From: Nitrospira sp. | GTDB taxonomy: Bacteria > Nitrospirota > Nitrospiria > Nitrospirales > Nitrospiraceae | Length of the DNA: 37,622 nucleotides | Assembly: GCA_019636815.1 (NCBI GenBank) | Contig: JAHBWT010000040.1 | Span: forward strand, 1-37,622 | Reading direction: 5' to 3' | Shown here: positions 11,267 to 23,929 of the stretch, one piece after another | Position numbering within the stretch: the first letter of the stretch is position 1 | How the letters are laid out: every line of letters begins with the position of its first letter | The notes under the pieces: model-generated | Told to the model about the DNA's origin: nothing | What the model saw: only the letters and a program-made list of their open reading frames with translations | Database searches by the model: none | Translations under genes and position numbers: made by a program

Positions 11267-11398
11267 GAAAGGATGGACAAGGGCAAGTTCCTGACGTCCG
11301 GCGCCCGAGATGTCGAGGGATCGAACGACGTTGACTTACCTAAAATTCCCCTGTTAAGTTGCGACATTTTTACTGGCCCATTGTGAATGGAGGACATT

Positions 11399-12259
11399 GT
11401 GTCCGCAAAACTCATCGATGGAAAAGCACTTGCCCAACAAGTCCGTGATCGATTGGCAAGGGAATCTGCTGAGCTGTTCGCTCAAAAATCAATTCGGCCT
11501 GGTCTTGCGACCATTTTGGTTGGAGACGATCCCGCCTCGCATGTGTACGTTCGGAACAAGCAAAAGGCTTGTGAAGTGGCAGGAATCCATGTCGACGATC
11601 ACAAGCTCCCCGCAAGCACGACGCAGGTCGAGTTGCTCGCGCTCATTGAGAAAAAAAACGCCGATCCCAAGATCCATGGGATCCTGGTTCAACTCCCCCT
11701 GCCGAAACACATAGACAGCAAAGTCATTCTGGAAGCCGTCTCGCCACTCAAAGACGCGGATGGGTTTCATCCGTACAATTTCGGGCGTCTCGTGGAAGGA
11801 CATCCCGTGTTCGAAGCCTGTACTCCGAAAGGCGTCATCAAGATGATTGAGTCTGCCGGAGTGACGATTGAAGGCAAGCGAGCGGTTGTGGTCGGTCGGA
11901 GTAATATCGTCGGAAAGCCGTTGGCGCTCATGCTTCTCCAGAGAAATGCAACGGTCACGATTTGTCATTCGAAAACGAAGGACCTCCCCGCAGTGTGCCG
12001 TGAAGCGGACGTGCTTCTTGTCGCGATCGGAAGGGCTAAATTTGTGACCGCTGATATGGTGCGTGAAGGGGCAGTTGTTATCGACGTGGGCACGAACAAA
12101 ACGCCGGAGGGCAAATTATGCGGCGATGTGGATTTCGACGCGGTCAGTCAGAAGGCCGGCTGGATTAGTCCCGTTCCCGGTGGAGTTGGTCCTATGACGA
12201 TTGCGATGTTGCTCGAGAATACCGTGGAATCCGCCAAACGGACAGCAGGAATGAAGTGA
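11399..12259 (+). CDS. folD: Bifunctional methylene-THF dehydrogenase/cyclohydrolase (FolD)
   Basis: FolD interconverts 5,10-methylene-THF, methenyl-THF and 10-formyl-THF with NADP. From GTG 11399 the 286-residue product begins MSAKLIDGKALAQQV, which lines up with E. coli MAAKIIDGKTIAQQV and places the catalytic lysine at K54, the same number as in E. coli. GGAGG at 11389-11393 sits 5 nt before it. The in-frame ATG at 11387 has no ribosome binding site. Other motifs are GILVQLPLPKH, the Rossmann motif VVGRSNIVGKP and PVPGGVGPMTIAMLL. It is followed by metF and panB, all using methylene-THF. Confidence 0.96.
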   Translation: MSAKLIDGKALAQQVRDRLARESAELFAQKSIRPGLATILVGDDPASHVYVRNKQKACEVAGIHVDDHKLPASTTQVELLALIEKKNADPKIHGILVQLPLPKHIDSKVILEAVSPLKDADGFHPYNFGRLVEGHPVFEACTPKGVIKMIESAGVTIEGKRAVVVGRSNIVGKPLALMLLQRNATVTICHSKTKDLPAVCREADVLLVAIGRAKFVTADMVREGAVVIDVGTNKTPEGKLCGDVDFDAVSQKAGWISPVPGGVGPMTIAMLLENTVESAKRTAGMK

Positions 12260-12269
12260 GGGATCGGTC

Positions 12270-13157
12270 ATGAGCCGAGAGCCACAGCGCCTAATCAATG
12301 TTCTCAACCGAGGGACGTTCGCGGTCACAGTTGAATATAACCCTCCCAAGGGGACGAACATCTCCTCCGTTCTGGAAAATGCCAAACAGTTGGTGGGGCG
12401 TGTCCATGGAGTCAATGTCACCGACAATACCGCCGCCGTGGTTCGTGCTGGGTCGCTCCCGGTCTGTCGCTTGCTGTATGAATTAGGCCATGACCCAGTG
12501 ATGCAGCTGACGTGCCGTGACCGCAATCGGATCGCGATGCAGTCGGATTTGATGGGCGCGCACATGTTGGGGATCAGGAATATCCTATGCCTCACGGGTG
12601 ATTATCCGACGATCGGTGATCATAAGGAGGCCAAGCCGGTCTACGACCTTGATTCGGTACAGGTCATGCAGCTCGTGCAGGGGCTGAACAACGGCCATGA
12701 TATGGCCGGGCACAAACTGGACGGCGCCACGGCGTTCACGATCGGTGCGGCCGTCACGCCGGAGGCTGATCTGGTGGGACCGGTGTTGGCGAAGTTCGAA
12801 GTGAAAGTGAAAGCCGGCGCCCAGTTTTTCCAGACCCAAGCGATTTATAATCCGGAAGTCTTCGCCAGTTTCATGAAACAGGTGCGGCCGTTCAAGGTGA
12901 AGGTGCTTGCCGGGATATTGGTGTTGCGAAACCATAAGATGGCGGAATTCATGAATGCCAACATCCCCGGTATGTCGGTGCCGAAAGAGATGATCGATGA
13001 ACTCAAGGCTGCCGGAGATCGGGCTGAAGATGTCGGAGTCGAGATCGCAGTGCGATCGATCAAGGCGGTGCGACCTCATTGTGACGGGGTACATATCATG
13101 GCGATCAAAGCCACCCATCGCTTGGCCGAGATCATCACCAAGGCGGAATTAGGCTGA
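12270..13157 (+). CDS. metF: Methylenetetrahydrofolate reductase, catalytic domain (MetF)
   Basis: Flavoprotein that reduces 5,10-methylene-THF to 5-methyl-THF. The 295-residue TIM-barrel protein has the N-terminal strand FAVTVEYNPPKG (E22 corresponds to the catalytic Glu), HGVNVTDN (about 46-53), the folate/FAD strand IRNILCLTGDYP (about 107-118) and GAQFFQTQAIYN (about 182-193). GAGGGAT precedes the ATG and folD ends 10 bp upstream. No C-terminal zinc/Cys domain is fused to it. Such a domain occurs as a separate small gene at 16153-16437 on the other strand, which suggests a MetF-MetV type two-part enzyme (inference). Its stop overlaps panB by one base. Confidence 0.93.
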   Translation: MSREPQRLINVLNRGTFAVTVEYNPPKGTNISSVLENAKQLVGRVHGVNVTDNTAAVVRAGSLPVCRLLYELGHDPVMQLTCRDRNRIAMQSDLMGAHMLGIRNILCLTGDYPTIGDHKEAKPVYDLDSVQVMQLVQGLNNGHDMAGHKLDGATAFTIGAAVTPEADLVGPVLAKFEVKVKAGAQFFQTQAIYNPEVFASFMKQVRPFKVKVLAGILVLRNHKMAEFMNANIPGMSVPKEMIDELKAAGDRAEDVGVEIAVRSIKAVRPHCDGVHIMAIKATHRLAEIITKAELG

Positions 13158-13945
13158 TGACGGTTCTCGAATTTCAGCAATATAAGAAAGACCGGAAGAA
13201 GCTCGTCGTGGTAACGGCCTACGATGCGCTCTTCGCTCGCATCGTCGAGCAAGCAGGAATTCGGGTGATCTTGGTGGGGGATTCTCTAGGAGTCGTTGTA
13301 CAAGGAAATCTCAATACGCTGACCGTGACGATAGAGGACATGCTGTACCACACCAAGCTCGTGACTGGTGCCGTGCAGCGTTCTCTGGTGATTGCTGACA
13401 TGCCATTTATGTCCTATCAGGCGAGTACGGAAGATGCTGTGCGAAATGCGGGTCGTTTGTTACAGGCCGGAGCTGCCGCAGTGAAGCTCGAAGGTGGCGC
13501 CGTGATGGCCGATCGAATCAAGGCCATGACGAGCATCGGGATTCCTGTCATGGGCCATCTCGGTATGACACCACAATCAGTCCATGCGCTAGGCGGCTAC
13601 AAGGTCCAAGGCAAAGTCGAAGATCACGCGTCGAAGTTATTGGAAGATGCGAAGGTTCTTGAAGCGGCTGGGGCCTTCGCGCTCGTGTTGGAGGCGGTGC
13701 CCGCCGATCTGGCAAGGAAAATTACTCAAGCTCTTTCGATTTCCACTATCGGTATCGGAGCGGGCCCGCATTGTGATGGGCAAGTCCTGGTGATTTATGA
13801 TTTGTTGGGACTTTTTGACTCGTTCGTCCCCAAGTTTGTGAAGACCTACGCCCACCTGAAGGCCGATGCGCTTCAAGCGCTCGGACGTTATAAAGAAGAA
13901 GTCGAACAGGGAAAATTTCCCTCGGATTCAGAAAGCTACCATTAG
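13157..13945 (+). CDS. panB: Ketopantoate hydroxymethyltransferase (PanB)
   Basis: PanB transfers the one-carbon unit of methylene-THF to 2-oxoisovalerate, the first step of pantothenate and CoA synthesis. The 262-residue protein shows VVTAYDALFARI, the metal-binding positions D42 (GDSLG), D81 (ADMPF) and E112 (KLEGG), and catalytic E179 (LVLEAVP). HLGMTPQSVHALGGYKVQG (134-152) is a strong family signature. Start ATG shares one base with the metF stop (TGATG). The folD-metF-panB order groups three users of methylene-THF. Confidence 0.96.
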   Translation: MTVLEFQQYKKDRKKLVVVTAYDALFARIVEQAGIRVILVGDSLGVVVQGNLNTLTVTIEDMLYHTKLVTGAVQRSLVIADMPFMSYQASTEDAVRNAGRLLQAGAAAVKLEGGAVMADRIKAMTSIGIPVMGHLGMTPQSVHALGGYKVQGKVEDHASKLLEDAKVLEAAGAFALVLEAVPADLARKITQALSISTIGIGAGPHCDGQVLVIYDLLGLFDSFVPKFVKTYAHLKADALQALGRYKEEVEQGKFPSDSESYH

Positions 13946-14093: not shown

Positions 14094-14870
14094 ATGGACT
14101 GGCTTGAGTGGCTGTTGAGCAGAGAATTGCGCCAGGTCGTGCTACAGCACGACTTGTTCATTCCACTGCTGTTTATCGTGAGAGTCCTGGCAATGACGGC
14201 GCTGGAGTGGGTCGTTCCGGCTCGGGAAGTGCCCTATCGAACACTGCTTGCCCTGGATATAGTCGGAGCCGCGCTGGTCGGCTATTTGATGATCCCTGCC
14301 GCTCGCTATCTCAGTGAGATGATCGTGATTCACCCGGTTCTTCCGGAAGCCGTCCTCACCTTGCCAACGGCGATGCTATTTGCTTTCTATTACCTCGTGG
14401 GCGATTTTGGGGCCTACTGGGTTCATCGGCTCTTGCATCTCACTCCCTTCTGGAGAATGCATAAGTGGCACCATTCTCCGACCACCATGTACTGGTTGGC
14501 CGGCTATCGCACATCGCTTACCCAGTTGGTCTTCTTCAACCTGCCATGGATGTTTGCGTCCTCTTTATTCGGTATGGCTCCTTGGTGGATGTATGTGCTG
14601 GCGTTGTCCTCCCATATGGTGCTGAACGACTGGATGCACATGAACCTGACCTGGCGTTCGAATTGGTTGGAGTGGATATTGGTGACACCGCGCTATCACC
14701 ATATTCATCATAGTTGTGATCTGGCCCTCTCCGACACCAACTTCGGCGTAACATTCAGCATATGGGATCGGTTGTTCGGAACCTATACCGATCCGGACCA
14801 GGTAAAGGAACCTCTCTCGTTCGGGATTGGCGAAAAGGTTCCGTTGATCCGTCTCGTTGCGGGATTCTAA
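14094..14870 (+). CDS. Fatty acid hydroxylase/sterol desaturase family membrane protein
   Basis: A 258-residue integral membrane di-iron enzyme of the fatty acid hydroxylase superfamily. Hydrophobic segments lie near 21-40, 50-70, 88-108 and 142-175. The three histidine boxes are H111/H115 (HRLLH), H123/H126/H127 (HKWHH) and H202/H203/H205/H206 (HHIHH), with extra H174 and H182. This set binds the di-iron centre that hydroxylates or desaturates lipids with O2. The substrate (fatty acid, hopanoid/sterol or carotenoid) cannot be told. ATG 14094 has only a weak ribosome binding site. It converges on apaH with 12 bp between the stops. Confidence 0.85.
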   Translation: MDWLEWLLSRELRQVVLQHDLFIPLLFIVRVLAMTALEWVVPAREVPYRTLLALDIVGAALVGYLMIPAARYLSEMIVIHPVLPEAVLTLPTAMLFAFYYLVGDFGAYWVHRLLHLTPFWRMHKWHHSPTTMYWLAGYRTSLTQLVFFNLPWMFASSLFGMAPWWMYVLALSSHMVLNDWMHMNLTWRSNWLEWILVTPRYHHIHHSCDLALSDTNFGVTFSIWDRLFGTYTDPDQVKEPLSFGIGEKVPLIRLVAGF

Positions 14871-14882
14871 CCGGTCGAAGCA

Positions 14883-15689
14883 TCAGCACCTCGAATATCC
14901 GTTCACCTGAAAAACGGCACGATCCTCCAGGCGAACGGCTGTCAATTGCCGACCCCAGACACAGCCGCTATCGATAGCGAGCAGGTTTGGCTCGATATGC
15001 AAGCCGAGTGCTGCCCAGTGGCCGGTGATGATTGTGGCGTCGGCGTTGCGGCGGCCGGGGATCCGAAACCAGGGGGTGAATCCTGAGGGGGCATTCTCCG
15101 GTGTCCCGGAAAAATTCGACATCTTTCCGGTCGGTGTGCAAGTTCTGAGTCTGGTCAACACATGCGCGATGCTTACCAGCCGGTCCATTCCTGTGAGCGA
15201 AGGCCTCCACGGTGGAATCGGATTCTGAAAGATTGCCCGGAGTAAGGCTCGATAGTCGGGCCCTGACAGCGCAGTTTCCACGTCTCGCGTAAATTGCACC
15301 GTGTCTGTTATCGTCCATTGTGGGAGCAGTCCTGCATGGACCATGAAGAACCCATTCTCGTGGTGATGCAGCGGCTGTTGTCTGAGCCAAACGAGTAACT
15401 CGTTCCGGTCAGGAGCCACCAGCACATCCTGAATCGTATCTTTCGGTCGTGGTGGCACGATACCTTCTGCAACGGCCAACAGAAACAAATCGTGGTTCCC
15501 GAGCACAACCTGTACGGCCGGTTCAATCTGCCTGAGATAACGAAGGACGCTGAGAGATTCGGGGCCTCGGTTGACGAGGTCGCCGACGAACCAGAGCCGA
15601 TCGATGCGAGGTTGGAATGTGATGCGGTCGAGTAAGTTGCGGAGAGAGTTGAAGCATCCTTGAATGTCGCCGATTGCGTACGTGGACAT
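14883..15689 (-). CDS. apaH: Symmetrical diadenosine tetraphosphatase (ApaH)
   Basis: Metallophosphatase that hydrolyses Ap4A to two ADP and can remove Np4 caps from RNA. The 268-residue protein starts MSTYAIGDIQGCFNSL, with GDIQG as the first metal motif, then FVGDLVNRGPESLSVLRYL (about 34-52) and VLGNHDLFLLA (about 62-72), and a late ITGHWAALGLH. The Gln in GDIQG, instead of His, is common in this family. It lies 27 bp after queF on the same strand and is the last gene of a queF-containing unit. Confidence 0.93.
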   Translation of the reverse strand: MSTYAIGDIQGCFNSLRNLLDRITFQPRIDRLWFVGDLVNRGPESLSVLRYLRQIEPAVQVVLGNHDLFLLAVAEGIVPPRPKDTIQDVLVAPDRNELLVWLRQQPLHHHENGFFMVHAGLLPQWTITDTVQFTRDVETALSGPDYRALLRAIFQNPIPPWRPSLTGMDRLVSIAHVLTRLRTCTPTGKMSNFSGTPENAPSGFTPWFRIPGRRNADATIITGHWAALGLHIEPNLLAIDSGCVWGRQLTAVRLEDRAVFQVNGYSRC

Positions 15690-15716: not shown

Positions 15717-16133
15717 TCATGGATACTTTGCTTCGATCTTGCTCGACAACCCGCCTCGCGCCGTAAATGTGCCCGTGACTTTTGCCCAGACAGGCTGGCA
15801 GGCTTGTACGACATCCTGGAGGATGCGATTCACGGCGTTCTCGTAGAAGATACCCAGATTGCGATAGGCGTGGATGTACATTTTGAGTGCCTTCAGTTCA
15901 AGGCATTCTGTATCGGGCATGTAGTGCAGCGTAATGGTCCCGAAGTCAGGTAAATTGGTCTTGGGGCAGATCGCTGTGTATTCTGGAATCTCGATCGTGA
16001 TCTCATAGCCCTTGTACTGATTCGGGAATGTCTCAATCTCAGGTAACGGAGCCGTGATTCCGCTCTTTGCATGCGCATGGTTATAGCCAAGTTTTGTTGT
16101 CCGGAATCTCCTGTTCGACGTCTTACCGTTCAT
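15717..16133 (-). CDS. queF: NADPH-dependent preQ0 reductase (QueF, short form)
   Basis: QueF reduces the nitrile of 7-cyano-7-deazaguanine (preQ0) to preQ1 for queuosine in tRNA. The 138-residue single-domain (YkvM-like) form has the nucleophile C56 and D63 in EYTAICPKTNLPDFG and the NADPH-binding motif ELKALK (79-84). At the position of the usual FHE motif this protein reads FYEN (Y97, E98), so the conserved His is a Tyr; variants like this occur, but the effect here is untested. It is followed by apaH and preceded 19 bp upstream by the MetV-like gene. Confidence 0.93.
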   Translation of the reverse strand: MNGKTSNRRFRTTKLGYNHAHAKSGITAPLPEIETFPNQYKGYEITIEIPEYTAICPKTNLPDFGTITLHYMPDTECLELKALKMYIHAYRNLGIFYENAVNRILQDVVQACQPVWAKVTGTFTARGGLSSKIEAKYP

Positions 16134-16152: not shown

Positions 16153-16437
16153 CTAGAGTTGTTTCATCCATTCCGTTTGACCAATCTTCTCCAATTCAAT
16201 GTAAAGCGAGACCCATGGGCATTGCATCTCGGGATAGACTTCGCAGAAACCACCTCTGCGGATACCGCCACAAGGGCCGTGTGCCATAAATTTTGGACAC
16301 TCGGCCTTGAGTGAATCGTTGGGAATCGGCGGACGCTTGTGAACTCCGCCGACGTGGGCACCGGTATCATCTTCGCCTGGGATGAGAACACGTCGTGGCA
16401 TGAGTTGCAGTGTAAACGGAATGTGGTTGATCGGCAA
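16153..16437 (-). CDS. Stand-alone MTHFR C-terminal domain protein (MetV-like)
   Basis: A very small protein (94 residues from TTG 16437, or 82 from ATG 16401; neither has a clear ribosome binding site). Its core ECPKFMAHGPCGG followed by CEVYPEMQCPWV matches the Cys-rich domain found at the C-terminus of some methylenetetrahydrofolate reductases and in MetV, the MetF partner of acetogens. The four cysteines C47, C56, C65 and C73 are intact and could bind zinc or an Fe-S cluster. The metF catalytic gene is 3 kb away on the other strand without this domain, so a two-part MetFV enzyme is a reasonable inference. It probably shares a transcript with queF and apaH. Confidence 0.75.
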   Translation of the reverse strand: MPINHIPFTLQLMPRRVLIPGEDDTGAHVGGVHKRPPIPNDSLKAECPKFMAHGPCGGIRRGGFCEVYPEMQCPWVSLYIELEKIGQTEWMKQL

Positions 16438-16857: not shown

Positions 16858-17751
16858 ATGAGCCTTGATTATGTCAAGTTTTCCAATGGATTTGAGAAGT
16901 TTATGCCAAAGGAATATCGGGATATGGTGGAGCATGGACCTTTTGGGAAAAAGGTGAGTGTTTCACAGGTGGGGAGTTTTAAGGAGGTACTGGAAGAGCA
17001 TCCTATGTGTGCCGGCTGTGCCATGACGCTTTTTATTCGACTTGCCATGGTCGCGTTCCCAAACCCTGAAGACACAATTACTGTTGGAACGGCCGGATGT
17101 GGTCGCCTAGCTATTTCTCAGGCTGCGATACCCTTTGTGTATGGCAACTATGGCGATCAAAACGGAGTCGCGAGCGGGCTGTCAAGAGGTCTCCGTCTTC
17201 GTTTCGGCGACAAGCCGAAAGATGTGGTGGTGATGGCCGGAGACGGCGGTACGGCGGACATCGGTTTTCAACAGGTTCTGCATTCATGGTTCCGTAAGGA
17301 GCGATTTACGACCATTATGTTGGATAACGAAGTGTACGGGAATACCGGAGGTCAGGAAAGCGGGATGACGAACAGGGGCGCCGTGTTAAAAATGGCTCCA
17401 CTCGGTAAGAAGTTTGAGAAGATGGATATGGTGCAGATGGCGAAGGTTGCGGGTTGCGCCTATGTTGCCACGGTTGTTCCGAATAATCCGCGCCGCGTCG
17501 AAAGCGTGATCAAGAAGGCGGTTTTGATCGCGCGCGAAGTCGGCTCCACCTATATTCAAGCATATACGTCTTGCAATATTGAGTACGCGATTCCGACCGA
17601 CAAGGTCATGGAAGATGCCAAGGCAGTCGAAAACGATCGGTATCAGTTCACGGAATACGTCAGTGAAGAAGCGAAGCAATACTTGACCGAGCGTTACGGC
17701 TACAAGGAATTCCTTGCCAAGCCGGCTGCTGCGATTCCCAACAAGGCCTAA
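16858..17751 (+). CDS. porB: 2-oxoacid:ferredoxin oxidoreductase, beta (TPP) subunit
   Basis: TPP-binding subunit of a pyruvate or 2-oxoglutarate:ferredoxin oxidoreductase, run in the CO2-fixing direction in the reductive TCA cycle. In 297 residues the TPP/Mg motif GDGGTADIGFQ (128-138) and LDNEVYGNTGGQ (155-166) are clear. C51, C54 (CAGC), C81 and C239 are placed like the four ligands of the proximal [4Fe-4S] cluster. A good AAGGGAGG precedes the ATG. It is first of five co-directed genes (beta, gamma, ferredoxin, epsilon-like, alpha). Substrate specificity cannot be decided from sequence reading, so the por symbol is provisional (for- would apply to the 2-oxoglutarate enzyme). Confidence 0.9.
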   Translation: MSLDYVKFSNGFEKFMPKEYRDMVEHGPFGKKVSVSQVGSFKEVLEEHPMCAGCAMTLFIRLAMVAFPNPEDTITVGTAGCGRLAISQAAIPFVYGNYGDQNGVASGLSRGLRLRFGDKPKDVVVMAGDGGTADIGFQQVLHSWFRKERFTTIMLDNEVYGNTGGQESGMTNRGAVLKMAPLGKKFEKMDMVQMAKVAGCAYVATVVPNNPRRVESVIKKAVLIAREVGSTYIQAYTSCNIEYAIPTDKVMEDAKAVENDRYQFTEYVSEEAKQYLTERYGYKEFLAKPAAAIPNKA

Positions 17752-17780
17752 AAGCCTAAGCGATCGAAGGAGATTTCACG

Positions 17781-18503
17781 ATGGCGAAACGCTTCAACAT
17801 TCGAATGGCAGGGGTCGGCGGACAAGGCGTCGTGACCGGGTCTCATATTCTGAGCACAGCCGTCATCAATGCCGGCGGTGAAAGCACCATTGTGCCGTTC
17901 TACGGGTCGGAAAAGCGAATGGCGCCCGTCGAAAGCTATGTCCGGGTGTCGGATGAGCCGATTTATGAAATCGGCGAAATCACGTTTCCGCACATCATCA
18001 TCATTTTTCACCCGCAGGTCATCACCCACGGTAAGTCGTATACGATGCCGTTCTACTTCGGCCTGAAGGAAGACGGTGTGGCCCTGATCAACAATGATGG
18101 GCCGATGAATCTCCATAGGGATCAAGCAGCTGAGCTGGAGAAGCTTCGGGCGAAGCTCTATTACTTTCCTGCGACGAAGATCTCCCTGGAAGTGGCGGGC
18201 ATGGATCTCGCCACCAATATGGCACTGATGGGTTGTATCGGTGCAATTACGGGGTTGACGAGCATGGCGGGGCTGGATCAGGCCGTAAAGGACCGGTTCC
18301 TAGGGAAAGGCTTTGTGGTATCTGGCGGTACCGCCGCTCTTGACAGTGTCGTTGAACGGAAGTTCAAGAAGAAGCAGGAGCTGATCGAGAAAAACGTCGC
18401 CGTGATGCGGGCAGGGTGGAATTACGCGGTCGACCACGATTGGGCTGCAGCCGATATCAAACGCGTCGAGGAGCCAGTGGCAGCGGCCGCTGCCACTGCG
18501 TAG
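17781..18503 (+). CDS. porG: 2-oxoacid:ferredoxin oxidoreductase, gamma subunit
   Basis: Gamma domain of the ferredoxin-dependent 2-oxoacid oxidoreductase, which binds CoA-side surfaces and bridges the alpha-beta core. The 240 residues begin NIRMAGVGGQGVVTGSHILS (6-25), the family glycine motif, followed by VPFYGSEKRMAPVESYVRVSD-like sequence matching the gamma signature around the conserved Gly-Ser-x-x-Arg. AAGGAGA precedes ATG 17781. Its last codons encode an alanine run and contain a perfect 24-bp palindrome (18475-18498). The next gene follows after 21 bp. Confidence 0.9.
   Translation: MAKRFNIRMAGVGGQGVVTGSHILSTAVINAGGESTIVPFYGSEKRMAPVESYVRVSDEPIYEIGEITFPHIIIIFHPQVITHGKSYTMPFYFGLKEDGVALINNDGPMNLHRDQAAELEKLRAKLYYFPATKISLEVAGMDLATNMALMGCIGAITGLTSMAGLDQAVKDRFLGKGFVVSGGTAALDSVVERKFKKKQELIEKNVAVMRAGWNYAVDHDWAAADIKRVEEPVAAAAATA
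18475..18498. repeat. Perfect 24-bp palindrome at the 3' end of the gamma gene
   Basis: A continuous self-complementary sequence with half-site CAGTGGCAGCGG, centred between 18486 and 18487, ending 2 bases before the stop codon. It encodes PVAAAAAT. As RNA it can fold only with a few central bases unpaired, giving a strong GC stem just before the ferredoxin gene. It may mark an RNA-processing or partial-termination point. Confidence 0.85.
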
Positions 18504-18524
18504 GGGAGCCGCAAAGGAGTCTTC

Positions 18525-18848
18525 ATGTACCTTGTAGCTGATATCAACGTTGAAATTTGTGCTGCGAAGAGTTGTAAGTTGTGCACGCAGTATTGCCCAG
18601 AAGCCAACACGATTCTCTACAGCGACGAGATGGGCAAAGATCAAGGCTTCAAGTATGGTTCAGCTTATGTCGCGGTGGACCGTTGTAAAGGGTGTGCGCA
18701 GTGTGTGTGGGTCTGTGACAACATGGCCAAAAACAACGCCATTAAGATGATCATGATCGATCAGCTGCCGAAAGCGGCGTTGACGGACAACATTACATAC
18801 GGCGAAAAGAGCACAACGGCCGTTTTGGCCAGTCCGGTTGTCGGATAA
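18525..18848 (+). CDS. porD: 2-oxoacid:ferredoxin oxidoreductase, delta (2[4Fe-4S] ferredoxin) subunit
   Basis: Small 107-residue ferredoxin-like subunit that passes electrons between external ferredoxin and the catalytic core. Two cysteine sets are present: C12, C17, C20, C24 (C-x4-C-x2-C-x3-C-P, two residues wider than the standard first gap) and C54, C57, C60, C64 (CKGCAQCVWVCD, lacking the usual following Pro). Both keep enough ligands for [4Fe-4S] clusters. AAAGGAG precedes the ATG. It lies between the gamma and epsilon-like genes. Confidence 0.87.
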   Translation: MYLVADINVEICAAKSCKLCTQYCPEANTILYSDEMGKDQGFKYGSAYVAVDRCKGCAQCVWVCDNMAKNNAIKMIMIDQLPKAALTDNITYGEKSTTAVLASPVVG

Positions 18849-18870
18849 GAGCGAGGAAAGGGGAAAGGGC

Positions 18871-19635
18871 GTGGCAACAACACAGGATACGAGAGAGCGC
18901 ATCATTGTGCCGGGACCTGCGGGTTTTCATCCTCCATCAGCTGCACAGTTGGGTGTGTCGCTGCCGGACCCCGGGCAAGGTTTGTTCTACGGATTACTCG
19001 AGCCGAATGAGGAAGTGGTCATTGAAGAGATGGCTCGTAAGATGCTGACGAGCCCGAACGCGACTCTGTTCCCCGGTCCGTTGCTGCTCTGGGCCTGGAA
19101 CGATCATGCGGTGGAAAAAGCAAAGGCGACGCTGGAGATTGCCGCGCAGATTCCTGAAGTTATGATCATTCCGATGCCGGATTATCGCCCGAAGTATCCG
19201 AAAATCGATCCAGAAGAAGTCATCAACCCCAATCACCCCAATCTCACCATCTGGGGCAATAAAATCGAAGCCTGCATCTTCATCGGGGTGCATTGCCACT
19301 ATGCGAATCTGACCCTCAAGATGATCCGGGCGGGGACGAATTGCTGCACAATGGCGGTTTGTGCCGAGCAGGGCCATGAAGACGCCATGCTCACCATCCG
19401 CGACTCGGATACGGTGAAGTTGAAGCATGTTGCCCAGATCTTCAAGCGGGTGCGCGAAGAAATGGGCATCAAACTGCCGGAGAACGGCGAGAACGTGCGT
19501 TTTACCGGAACGCAATCGAAGGTGCATGGGGGGAAGACCCACACCAATCCGATGGCGTTTGCACCAACCCCGGGAGGGGCAGGGAGTGCGGCGATCTTCG
19601 GTCACTCGGCAGAACAGATGAAGCGAGAGGGATAG
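18871..19635 (+). CDS. Probable epsilon subunit of the five-subunit oxidoreductase
   Basis: A 254-residue protein without a motif I can name, identified mainly by position within the oxidoreductase operon; five-subunit enzymes of Hydrogenobacter and Nitrospira include such an extra subunit. Sequence marks are GFHPPSAAQLGVSLPDPGQG near the N-terminus, LLLWAWNDHAVEKAKATLE, a possible metal-binding patch GVHCHYANLTLK, CCTMAVC and GKTHTNPM near the end. Start: GTG 18871 is preferred, with a purine-rich GAGGAAAGGGG just upstream; TTG 18838 is in frame but would overlap the ferredoxin gene. It could instead be an assembly or regulatory protein. Confidence 0.72.
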   Translation: MATTQDTRERIIVPGPAGFHPPSAAQLGVSLPDPGQGLFYGLLEPNEEVVIEEMARKMLTSPNATLFPGPLLLWAWNDHAVEKAKATLEIAAQIPEVMIIPMPDYRPKYPKIDPEEVINPNHPNLTIWGNKIEACIFIGVHCHYANLTLKMIRAGTNCCTMAVCAEQGHEDAMLTIRDSDTVKLKHVAQIFKRVREEMGIKLPENGENVRFTGTQSKVHGGKTHTNPMAFAPTPGGAGSAAIFGHSAEQMKREG

Positions 19636-19672
19636 GCTGAGCGAACAGCTCACCATCTTATAGAGGTGCAAC

Positions 19673-21007
19673 ATGAGCGAAACCGAAGTCAAAACCAATC
19701 CACAAGGCGATCCGATCACCAGTGTGGCGGTGCCTAAGTCGGATGGAAAAAAAGATCCCCATGGGGAGGCGAAAAGACAGAAGGTCGTCACCCCTGAATA
19801 TATGTTCCTTGAGGCTCCGCGGACGAAGGAATTCATCACCGGGAGCGAAGCAGCCAAGGAAGCGGTCCGCCGCTCGAACGTGGATTTGGCCATCGCCTAT
19901 CCGATCACCCCACAGAGCGAAACCATGCAGCTGGTGGGCGTGCTCTACGGTGAAGGCTATGTGAAAGAGTATTACCGTGGGGAAGAGGAAGTTGGCGTCA
20001 TGGCCGCCATTGCCGGTGGGTCACGCGCGGGTGTTCGGTGTTATACCGCGACAGCCGGTCCAGGCACGCTGCGTGGCCTCGAAGGCATTGCTTCTTGGCC
20101 AGGCCATCGTCTTCCGGTCGTGGCGATGTTCACATGCCGCGTCGTCAACGCGCCTTTGGCTATTCAACCGGATAACATCGAAGTGGCGTACCTGCTGAAC
20201 TGCGGCATGATCGTGTTCCATGCTGAAAATCAGCAAGACATGTTCGATTTCACGATGGCCGGTTTCACGATCAGCGAAAAGAATGATGTCACCTTGCCGG
20301 TGGGCGTCTGTTGCGATGGATTTTTCGTCACGCACGCGCGCGGGTATGTGCGTATGCAGGATCGTGGCATCAAGCTGCCGCCGCGCGAAGCTTGGCGCGG
20401 GGCCGTTCCTGTGCTCGATGCCGAGAATCCTCCCGCTCGTCTGTCTCGTGATGCTCCGGTCCAGAAGTCGAACTTCATGGCGTATAACATTCATGCCGTC
20501 TGGCAACAGGAAGTGTGGGCAGCTGTTGAGCGGTCTCGTAAGTACATCAATAAGTACATGGGCGGCTTGCTGACGGCGGAAAACGTCGAAGGCGCGGAAG
20601 CCATCATCATCGCTTCCGGAAGCGCCGCGGCACAGTCGCGTGAAGCGGTACGGCTTTGCAAGGACAAAGGCCTCAACGTCGGATTGATCAAGGTTCGTTC
20701 GCTCCGTCCGTTCCCGACGAAAGAGTTGCGCGAATTGTGCAAGACCGCGAAGTTGATCGTTGTGCCGGAATTCAACTACGTCGGTTGGCTGGCCAAGGAA
20801 GTGGCGACGGCAATCTATGGATACTCCAAAGCCAAGATCATCGGTGGGCCTCGTGTGTATGGTGGTCAGTCGATGCCGGTGGAATTGATCGTAGATGAAG
20901 TCGAATCCGGTCTGACCGGAAAAAAGTCGACGAACGTCGCGATGTCACAGGTCATGGGCGGAGTCGTCAATTCCGATGAAGTCGCCCACTTCATGCGCAG
21001 CATCTAA
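19673..21007 (+). CDS. porA: 2-oxoacid:ferredoxin oxidoreductase, alpha subunit
   Basis: Alpha subunit carrying the pyrimidine-binding side of TPP and the 2-oxoacid site. In the 444 residues the family start FITGSEAAKEAVRRSNVDLAIAYPITPQS (54-82) is clear, followed by EEEVGVMAAIAGGSRAGVRCYTATAGPG (104-131) and, in the C-terminal half, IIIASGSAAAQSREAV, a transketolase C-domain-like strand. Residues 1-45 are a charged extension not seen in most alpha subunits. In the active-site loop it reads AGPGTLRGLEG rather than the TSSQGL type of many pyruvate enzymes; that may bear on substrate choice but is not decisive. It ends the operon before a strong terminator. Confidence 0.9.
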   Translation: MSETEVKTNPQGDPITSVAVPKSDGKKDPHGEAKRQKVVTPEYMFLEAPRTKEFITGSEAAKEAVRRSNVDLAIAYPITPQSETMQLVGVLYGEGYVKEYYRGEEEVGVMAAIAGGSRAGVRCYTATAGPGTLRGLEGIASWPGHRLPVVAMFTCRVVNAPLAIQPDNIEVAYLLNCGMIVFHAENQQDMFDFTMAGFTISEKNDVTLPVGVCCDGFFVTHARGYVRMQDRGIKLPPREAWRGAVPVLDAENPPARLSRDAPVQKSNFMAYNIHAVWQQEVWAAVERSRKYINKYMGGLLTAENVEGAEAIIIASGSAAAQSREAVRLCKDKGLNVGLIKVRSLRPFPTKELRELCKTAKLIVVPEFNYVGWLAKEVATAIYGYSKAKIIGGPRVYGGQSMPVELIVDEVESGLTGKKSTNVAMSQVMGGVVNSDEVAHFMRSI

Positions 21008-23497: not shown

Positions 23498-23929
23498 ATG
23501 CACATGATTACCGAAAATCTGTTGGTGGGAGGCATCGACGATGCGCAGGAGCCTCCTACTGTGGTCGGTACCCTTCTGCTCGTCGCTGAAGAGTTTACGA
23601 TCATGCCGGCTGAATGGGTTGACTATCATCGGATTCCCTTTCGGGAATTTGCCAAGGTCGATCCTGCTAAGCTGATGGAAGCCATCCAATGGCTTGAATC
23701 GCGAGCCCCTAAAGGTAGGACGCTGGTCTGCTGTCGAGCAGGGATGGGCCGTTCTGTTTCAGTAGTCATGGCCTATCTCTGCTGCGTGGAGGGTCGAGCC
23801 TATGATGATGTATTGAAATTGGTCATGGCTCGGCGGCCTGGCGCCATGCCGCTGCCGAATCTTCAAGTCGCCATTCAACAGGTTCGCCAACTTCGGTGCG
23901 CCGGTAAATCCGTGCCCTCCGGTTCATAA
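23498..23929 (+). CDS. Dual-specificity/tyrosine phosphatase family protein
   Basis: A compact 143-residue phosphatase with the CX5R loop: VCCRAGMGRSVSV, catalytic C79 and R85 followed by S86. The His that usually precedes the nucleophile is replaced by C78, giving two adjacent cysteines that could form a redox switch (inference). Upstream YHRIPFREFAKVDPAKLMEA resembles the region before the P-loop in dual-specificity phosphatases, but the general-acid Asp is not certain from reading. Start ATG 23498 or 23504; both have weak ribosome binding sites. Substrate unknown. mutM follows after 81 bp. Confidence 0.8.
   Translation: MHMITENLLVGGIDDAQEPPTVVGTLLLVAEEFTIMPAEWVDYHRIPFREFAKVDPAKLMEAIQWLESRAPKGRTLVCCRAGMGRSVSVVMAYLCCVEGRAYDDVLKLVMARRPGAMPLPNLQVAIQQVRQLRCAGKSVPSGS

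Follow-up and report, generated by a model that had tools for sequence, protein, structure and literature searches.

The closest described relative of the small protein reported here is MetV, the partner of the methylene-tetrahydrofolate reductase MetF in acetogens such as Clostridium ljungdahlii (L111). According to the available part of one report, acetogen MetV strongly stimulates MetF and has been described as zinc-containing as well as Fe-S, while both the working of MetV in acetogens and the use of ferredoxin as the MetVF donor in the cell are disputed (PMC8760232). The C. ljungdahlii MetVF contains approximately 7.4 Fe and used reduced ferredoxin in vitro, as given in the accessible portion of a second report (PMC8515935). 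Full MetV proteins, from the phylum of our locus and from other phyla, have about 220 residues, in which an N-terminal alpha/beta domain is followed by a CxxCGxC...C group and then by four Cys residues. No solved MetV structure was found by sequence or profile search. In the mostly non-subscription literature on MetV, PF12225 and Nitrospira MTHFR, a short MetV is not named in any title or abstract opening, and the available parts of PMC11094777, PMC11327836 and PMC5736913 hold nothing that alters the reading given below.

The DNA analysed, hereafter called the window, is a stretch of 37,622 nucleotides from Nitrospira sp. (assembly GCA_019636815.1, contig JAHBWT010000040.1). Nitrospira is a genus of nitrite oxidisers or comammox bacteria. 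The initial annotation had placed a stand-alone MetV-like reading frame at 16153-16437 on the minus strand, and had named a search with the PF12225 model as its check and the lack of a hit as evidence to the contrary. The frame is present, and the search gave 46.5 bits (E 2.9e-12; curated cut-off 23), the match covering positions 40-87 of the 95 in the profile and, in the 94-codon frame, residues 45-93; this is the sole above-cut-off PF12225 match in the window's genome. The protein shares the C-terminal four-Cys module, the GPCGG motif and the CE...C.W signature with acetogen MetV. However, it has 82 residues instead of about 220 and lacks both the N-terminal domain and the upstream CxxCGxC...C group, corresponding to just the final third of a full-length MetV. 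It also differs in that its gene, in the window's family (f1), is not located beside metF, and in that the genome holds no acetyl-CoA synthase. The single site left consists of C35, C44, C53 and C61 (82-aa numbering). The GPCGG motif and the four Cys are invariant in all 81 aligned MetV-domain rows, with HGPCGG in place of NGPCGG in the 20 rows of the window's family.

AlphaFold2 modelled a full MetV (L008) with a pLDDT of 84.8, the N-terminal alpha/beta domain being predicted in it, and the short protein only weakly overall (pLDDT 64.7), with ten-residue blocks over residues 41-80 averaging 71-89. The predicted secondary structures agree over the shared part, where the helices at 62-72 and 76-80 of the short protein correspond to those at 177-188 and 191-195 of full MetV. 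Foldseek returned no match in the PDB for the short-protein model, which says nothing about the novelty of its fold. The VIA table for the full MetV is confined to the N-terminal part; over residues 4-146 of the L008 model, the N-terminal domain aligns with Dph2 (6q2d, Z 10.6, rmsd 2.5, 99 residues), a match that is tied with many periplasmic binding proteins.

The size of the protein had initially been put at 82-94 residues, of which the lower figure stood and the upper, derived from a TTG start at 16437, did not. We assign the gene, short metV, to 16153..16401 on the minus strand (82 aa, coordinates including the stop), since the ATG at 16401 is invariant in all 20 rows of the alignment (the window gene and 19 homologues) and since an in-frame stop is found three codons 5' of it in three of the 19 homologues. 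The TTG at 16437 instead opens the hexamer TTGCCG of a promoter-like element, TTGCCG-17-TACACT (16409..16437, minus strand), which ends 7 nt before the ATG. A pattern of the form TTG...-(17)-TA[CG]ACT, located 6-8 nt before the ATG, recurs in 18 of the 20 rows. The consensus promoter scan of the window does not list the element at 16409..16437 because its hexamers match the consensus at just 8 of 12 bases, which is under the scan cut-off. Judged from the DNA, the short metV transcript is probably leaderless. An Rfam search of the window gave no match. A Shine-Dalgarno-like motif was seen within 20 bases upstream of the ATG in just one of the 20 rows.

That the reading frame is not a product of chance follows from its homologues in 19 other genomes of the family, which align without gaps save for one 3-residue insertion and keep the four Cys invariant, and from dN/dS values against the window gene of 0.04-0.08 in all comparisons with unsaturated dS. 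The same data bear on the idea that short metV is a decaying remnant with no function. Its length, far below that of full MetV, is what one would expect of such a remnant, but the low dN/dS wherever computable, together with the invariance of the ATG and the four Cys in 20/20 rows and of the promoter-like element in 18/20, means that this reading, which we hold to be very improbable, is already contradicted.

With regard to MetF, the folD-metF-panB group had been placed 3 kb away and described as without the MetV domain; it lies 3.0 kb from short metV and carries no PF12225 domain. It begins with folD (11387..12259, plus strand; PF02882 and PF00763), followed by metF (12270..13157, plus strand; PF02219, 150.9 bits), which encodes an acetogen/YitJ-like methylene-THF reductase, and panB (13157..13945, plus strand; PF02548). 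The genome has no PF02219 match besides this metF and also has a MetH; the enzyme therefore probably serves methionine synthesis. Although the window MetF and the E. coli-type enzyme (TIGR00676) belong to the common PF02219 superfamily, the former scored only 79.7 bits against TIGR00676, well below the cut-off of 293.7; its best NCBIfam model was PRK08645, at 260.6 bits and under that model's cut-off of 453. The PF02219 scores in our draw of genomes from the phylum form two bands, one at about 295-346 bits and one below 170 bits, which we call E. coli-type and acetogen-type, respectively. In a MetF tree of 65 rows, the two high-band rows tested were split from all 63 others (100/100) and the window MetF fell outside the E. 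coli-type branch, making it the same broad kind of MetF as that of acetogen MetVF. The acetogen-type MetFs of the window's family and of its sister family f2 group at 100/99, while the wider grouping of these with G119, G139 and L080 is weak, with a support of 90/54. Named records among the rows of the window's phylum identify that phylum as Nitrospirota. In a comparison that left out L068 and both E. coli-type rows, few MetF columns separate genomes with MetV from those without. Only residue 279 is striking, being I in 41 of 47 sequences with MetV and in 1 of 15 without, a weak signal since the two groups are also clades.

The draw comprised 148 genomes of the phylum, each searched with PF12225, PF02219 and PF03598 (acetyl-CoA synthase), which were found in 92, 131 and 65 genomes, respectively; MetV and MetF classes were sorted by hand from the family match lists and then counted. 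Full-length MetV was present in 59 genomes; of these, 58 also have PF03598, the exception being G084, which is 74% complete. The short form occurred in 33, namely the 32 genomes of the window's family and G139, a member of the window's class. None of these 33 has PF03598, in agreement with the proposal that the organism does not use the acetyl-CoA pathway, and none has an E. coli-type MetF; seven genomes carry PF03598 without PF12225. All 92 genomes with PF12225 have an acetogen-type MetF, as do all 33 with the short form, and no genome with the small gene but without metF, the case that was to speak against a pairing, was encountered among these 33. In the window's family, all 32 members have short MetV only, and their MetF is of the acetogen type, the E. 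coli type being absent. The acetogen-type enzyme is consequently the only one found that could feed the MetH of the window's genome. The 56 genomes without PF12225 have an acetogen-type MetF only (21), both types (4), the E. coli-type only (14) or neither (17). The first group includes G119 and G131 of the window's class, and its 21 genomes, in which PF12225 and an E. coli-type MetF are both absent, show that acetogen-type MetFs do not always need a partner. The two-part methylene-THF reductase that had been suggested is therefore likely, in view of the domain identity and the co-occurrence with acetogen-type MetF, but these same 21 genomes leave it short of proof. In genomes without PF12225, matches to a DNA pattern of C-x8-C plus GPCGG were at the level of the reversed control, among the matches listed, and so carry no information. 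An A1-profile match in G137 (0.0099) fell in a frame antisense to a long ORF, read as proA, and was rejected as MetV.

The surroundings of short metV are constant within the window's family. As had been noted, the domain is encoded with queF (15717..16133, minus strand; TIGR03139, 132.8 bits), the next gene downstream, and apaH (14883..15689, minus strand; above the cut-offs of NF001204 and TIGR00668), both on the same strand as short metV. Upstream and divergent from it is a five-gene cluster (16858..21007, plus strand) named from its translations as 2-oxoacid:ferredoxin oxidoreductase-like. Among the 19 family loci fetched, drawn from the 32 family genomes, queF adjoins short metV on the same strand in all, and the oxidoreductase-like cluster is upstream and divergent in all, within about 0.5 kb in 17. 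Short metV and metF share a contig in 26 of the 32 family genomes, 2.5-20.7 kb apart and on opposite strands in all 26. Two other genes of the window may be mentioned: a fatty-acid-hydroxylase-like gene between panB and apaH (14094-14870, plus strand), which tblastn finds, of the 19 family loci, in L037 alone, and, at 23498-23929 (plus strand), a gene whose small product shows a CX5R phosphatase-like motif (VCCRAGMGRS) spotted by eye.

That short metV of the family is transcribed apart from metF, from the opposite strand and adjoining queF, counts against a partnership with MetF, as do the 21 genomes with an acetogen-type MetF alone, the small number of MetF columns that track MetV, and the weak model of the short protein. 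The fragment might instead have left MetF for a new job, for instance with QueF, as its unbroken association with queF in 19/19 loci and the existence of acetogen-type MetFs without PF12225 could suggest. We nevertheless consider this quite improbable, as the MetV domain keeps its signature residues in full, all five f2 genomes have queF yet no PF12225, and a short metV sits next to metF outside the family. In the two of the five f2 loci that were read, queF and a TPP-enzyme-like gene are neighbours and nothing small is encoded between them. The short forms outside the family are those of G139, where no queF match was found at E<=1e-10, and L080 (Nitrospirota bacterium OFTM211). Like the window protein they lack the N-terminal domain (about 115 residues) and have the same four Cys, but they are about 92-93 aa long, keep part of the upstream Cys region (TGGIC), all of which is absent throughout the window's family, and lie in the order folD-short metV-metF-panB, the short metV match in G139 ending 78 bp from that of metF. 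This position between folD and metF ties the fragment to MetF.

Among the best 80 of 551 confirmed stretches, to which our named scan was confined, L080 is the only locus whose sole MetV is short; in L096, from a Methanophagales archaeon, a second copy of 165 codons adjoins a full MetV. The two consecutive PF12225-like genes of L096 (2583-3848; 262 and 165 codons) have two MetF genes around them. Shorter PF12225 frames were also seen in L123 (150 codons) and L139 (169 codons, at a contig end), and L136 (2529-4554) and L145 (1728-3225) have MetV modules within longer frames of 675 and 499 codons, possibly fusions. In a draw of 118 genomes from another phylum, PF12225 was found in at least 96, and since the weakest genome still had a best E-value of 7e-24, none looks short-only among the matches listed. 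The simplest story consistent with these distributions is that metV was shortened early, left the operon in f1 and was lost in f2, which has the E. coli-type MetF in 5/5 genomes and an acetogen-type metF also in 4/5.

The domain had further been proposed to select an electron donor such as ferredoxin or NADH. This proposal is weakened, as the parts where electrons would be expected to enter, namely the N-terminal domain and the Cys group upstream, are missing. A more specific version, modelled on what has been proposed for MetVF of acetogens, holds that the retained four-Cys site carries a [4Fe-4S] cluster through which reduced ferredoxin passes electrons to the flavin of MetF. The iron content and ferredoxin use of the C. 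ljungdahlii enzyme (in the part of PMC8515935 available), the invariance of the four Cys in 81/81 rows and the divergent position of short metV relative to the ferredoxin-dependent oxidoreductase-like cluster in 19/19 loci, a candidate source or user of reduced ferredoxin, all agree with it. We still judge it unlikely, given the loss of the N-terminal domain and of the upstream Cys residues, which in full MetV lie near C131, C137 and C146, and given that MetV has been described with zinc besides Fe-S (available part of PMC8760232), so that the remaining site could be that of the zinc. A broader form, which is possible but doubtful, is that the acetogen MetF was kept while its electron-input subunit was cut to one metal site, giving a minimal two-part enzyme that would run on ferredoxin or another low-potential donor in probably aerobic bacteria that, judging by the genomes sampled, lack acetyl-CoA synthase; gene content likewise suggests Nitrospira itself, and so an aerobic life, for the window organism.

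Donor selection is, we think, a less likely role than that of a module supporting MetF. With the N-terminal domain lost, and the upstream Cys residues as well, we take the module that is left to be what MetF needs. The explanation we favour, with some confidence, is that a MetV trimmed to its C-terminal four-Cys module acts as a small accessory subunit that docks onto MetF and keeps the enzyme active. The short protein would bind MetF physically and would stabilise or activate it rather than take in electrons, its four Cys presumably holding either Zn or one [4Fe-4S], and MetF kept active in this way would supply methyl-THF for methionine. A natural MetV of one four-Cys module, paired with the genome's only MetF, offers a minimal system for asking which part of MetV is needed by MetF, and the pair bears on which donor supplies the electrons for methionine synthesis in these bacteria. 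From its genomes, a group related to nitrite oxidisers appears to have retained the fragment as the partner of its only enzyme making methyl-folate.
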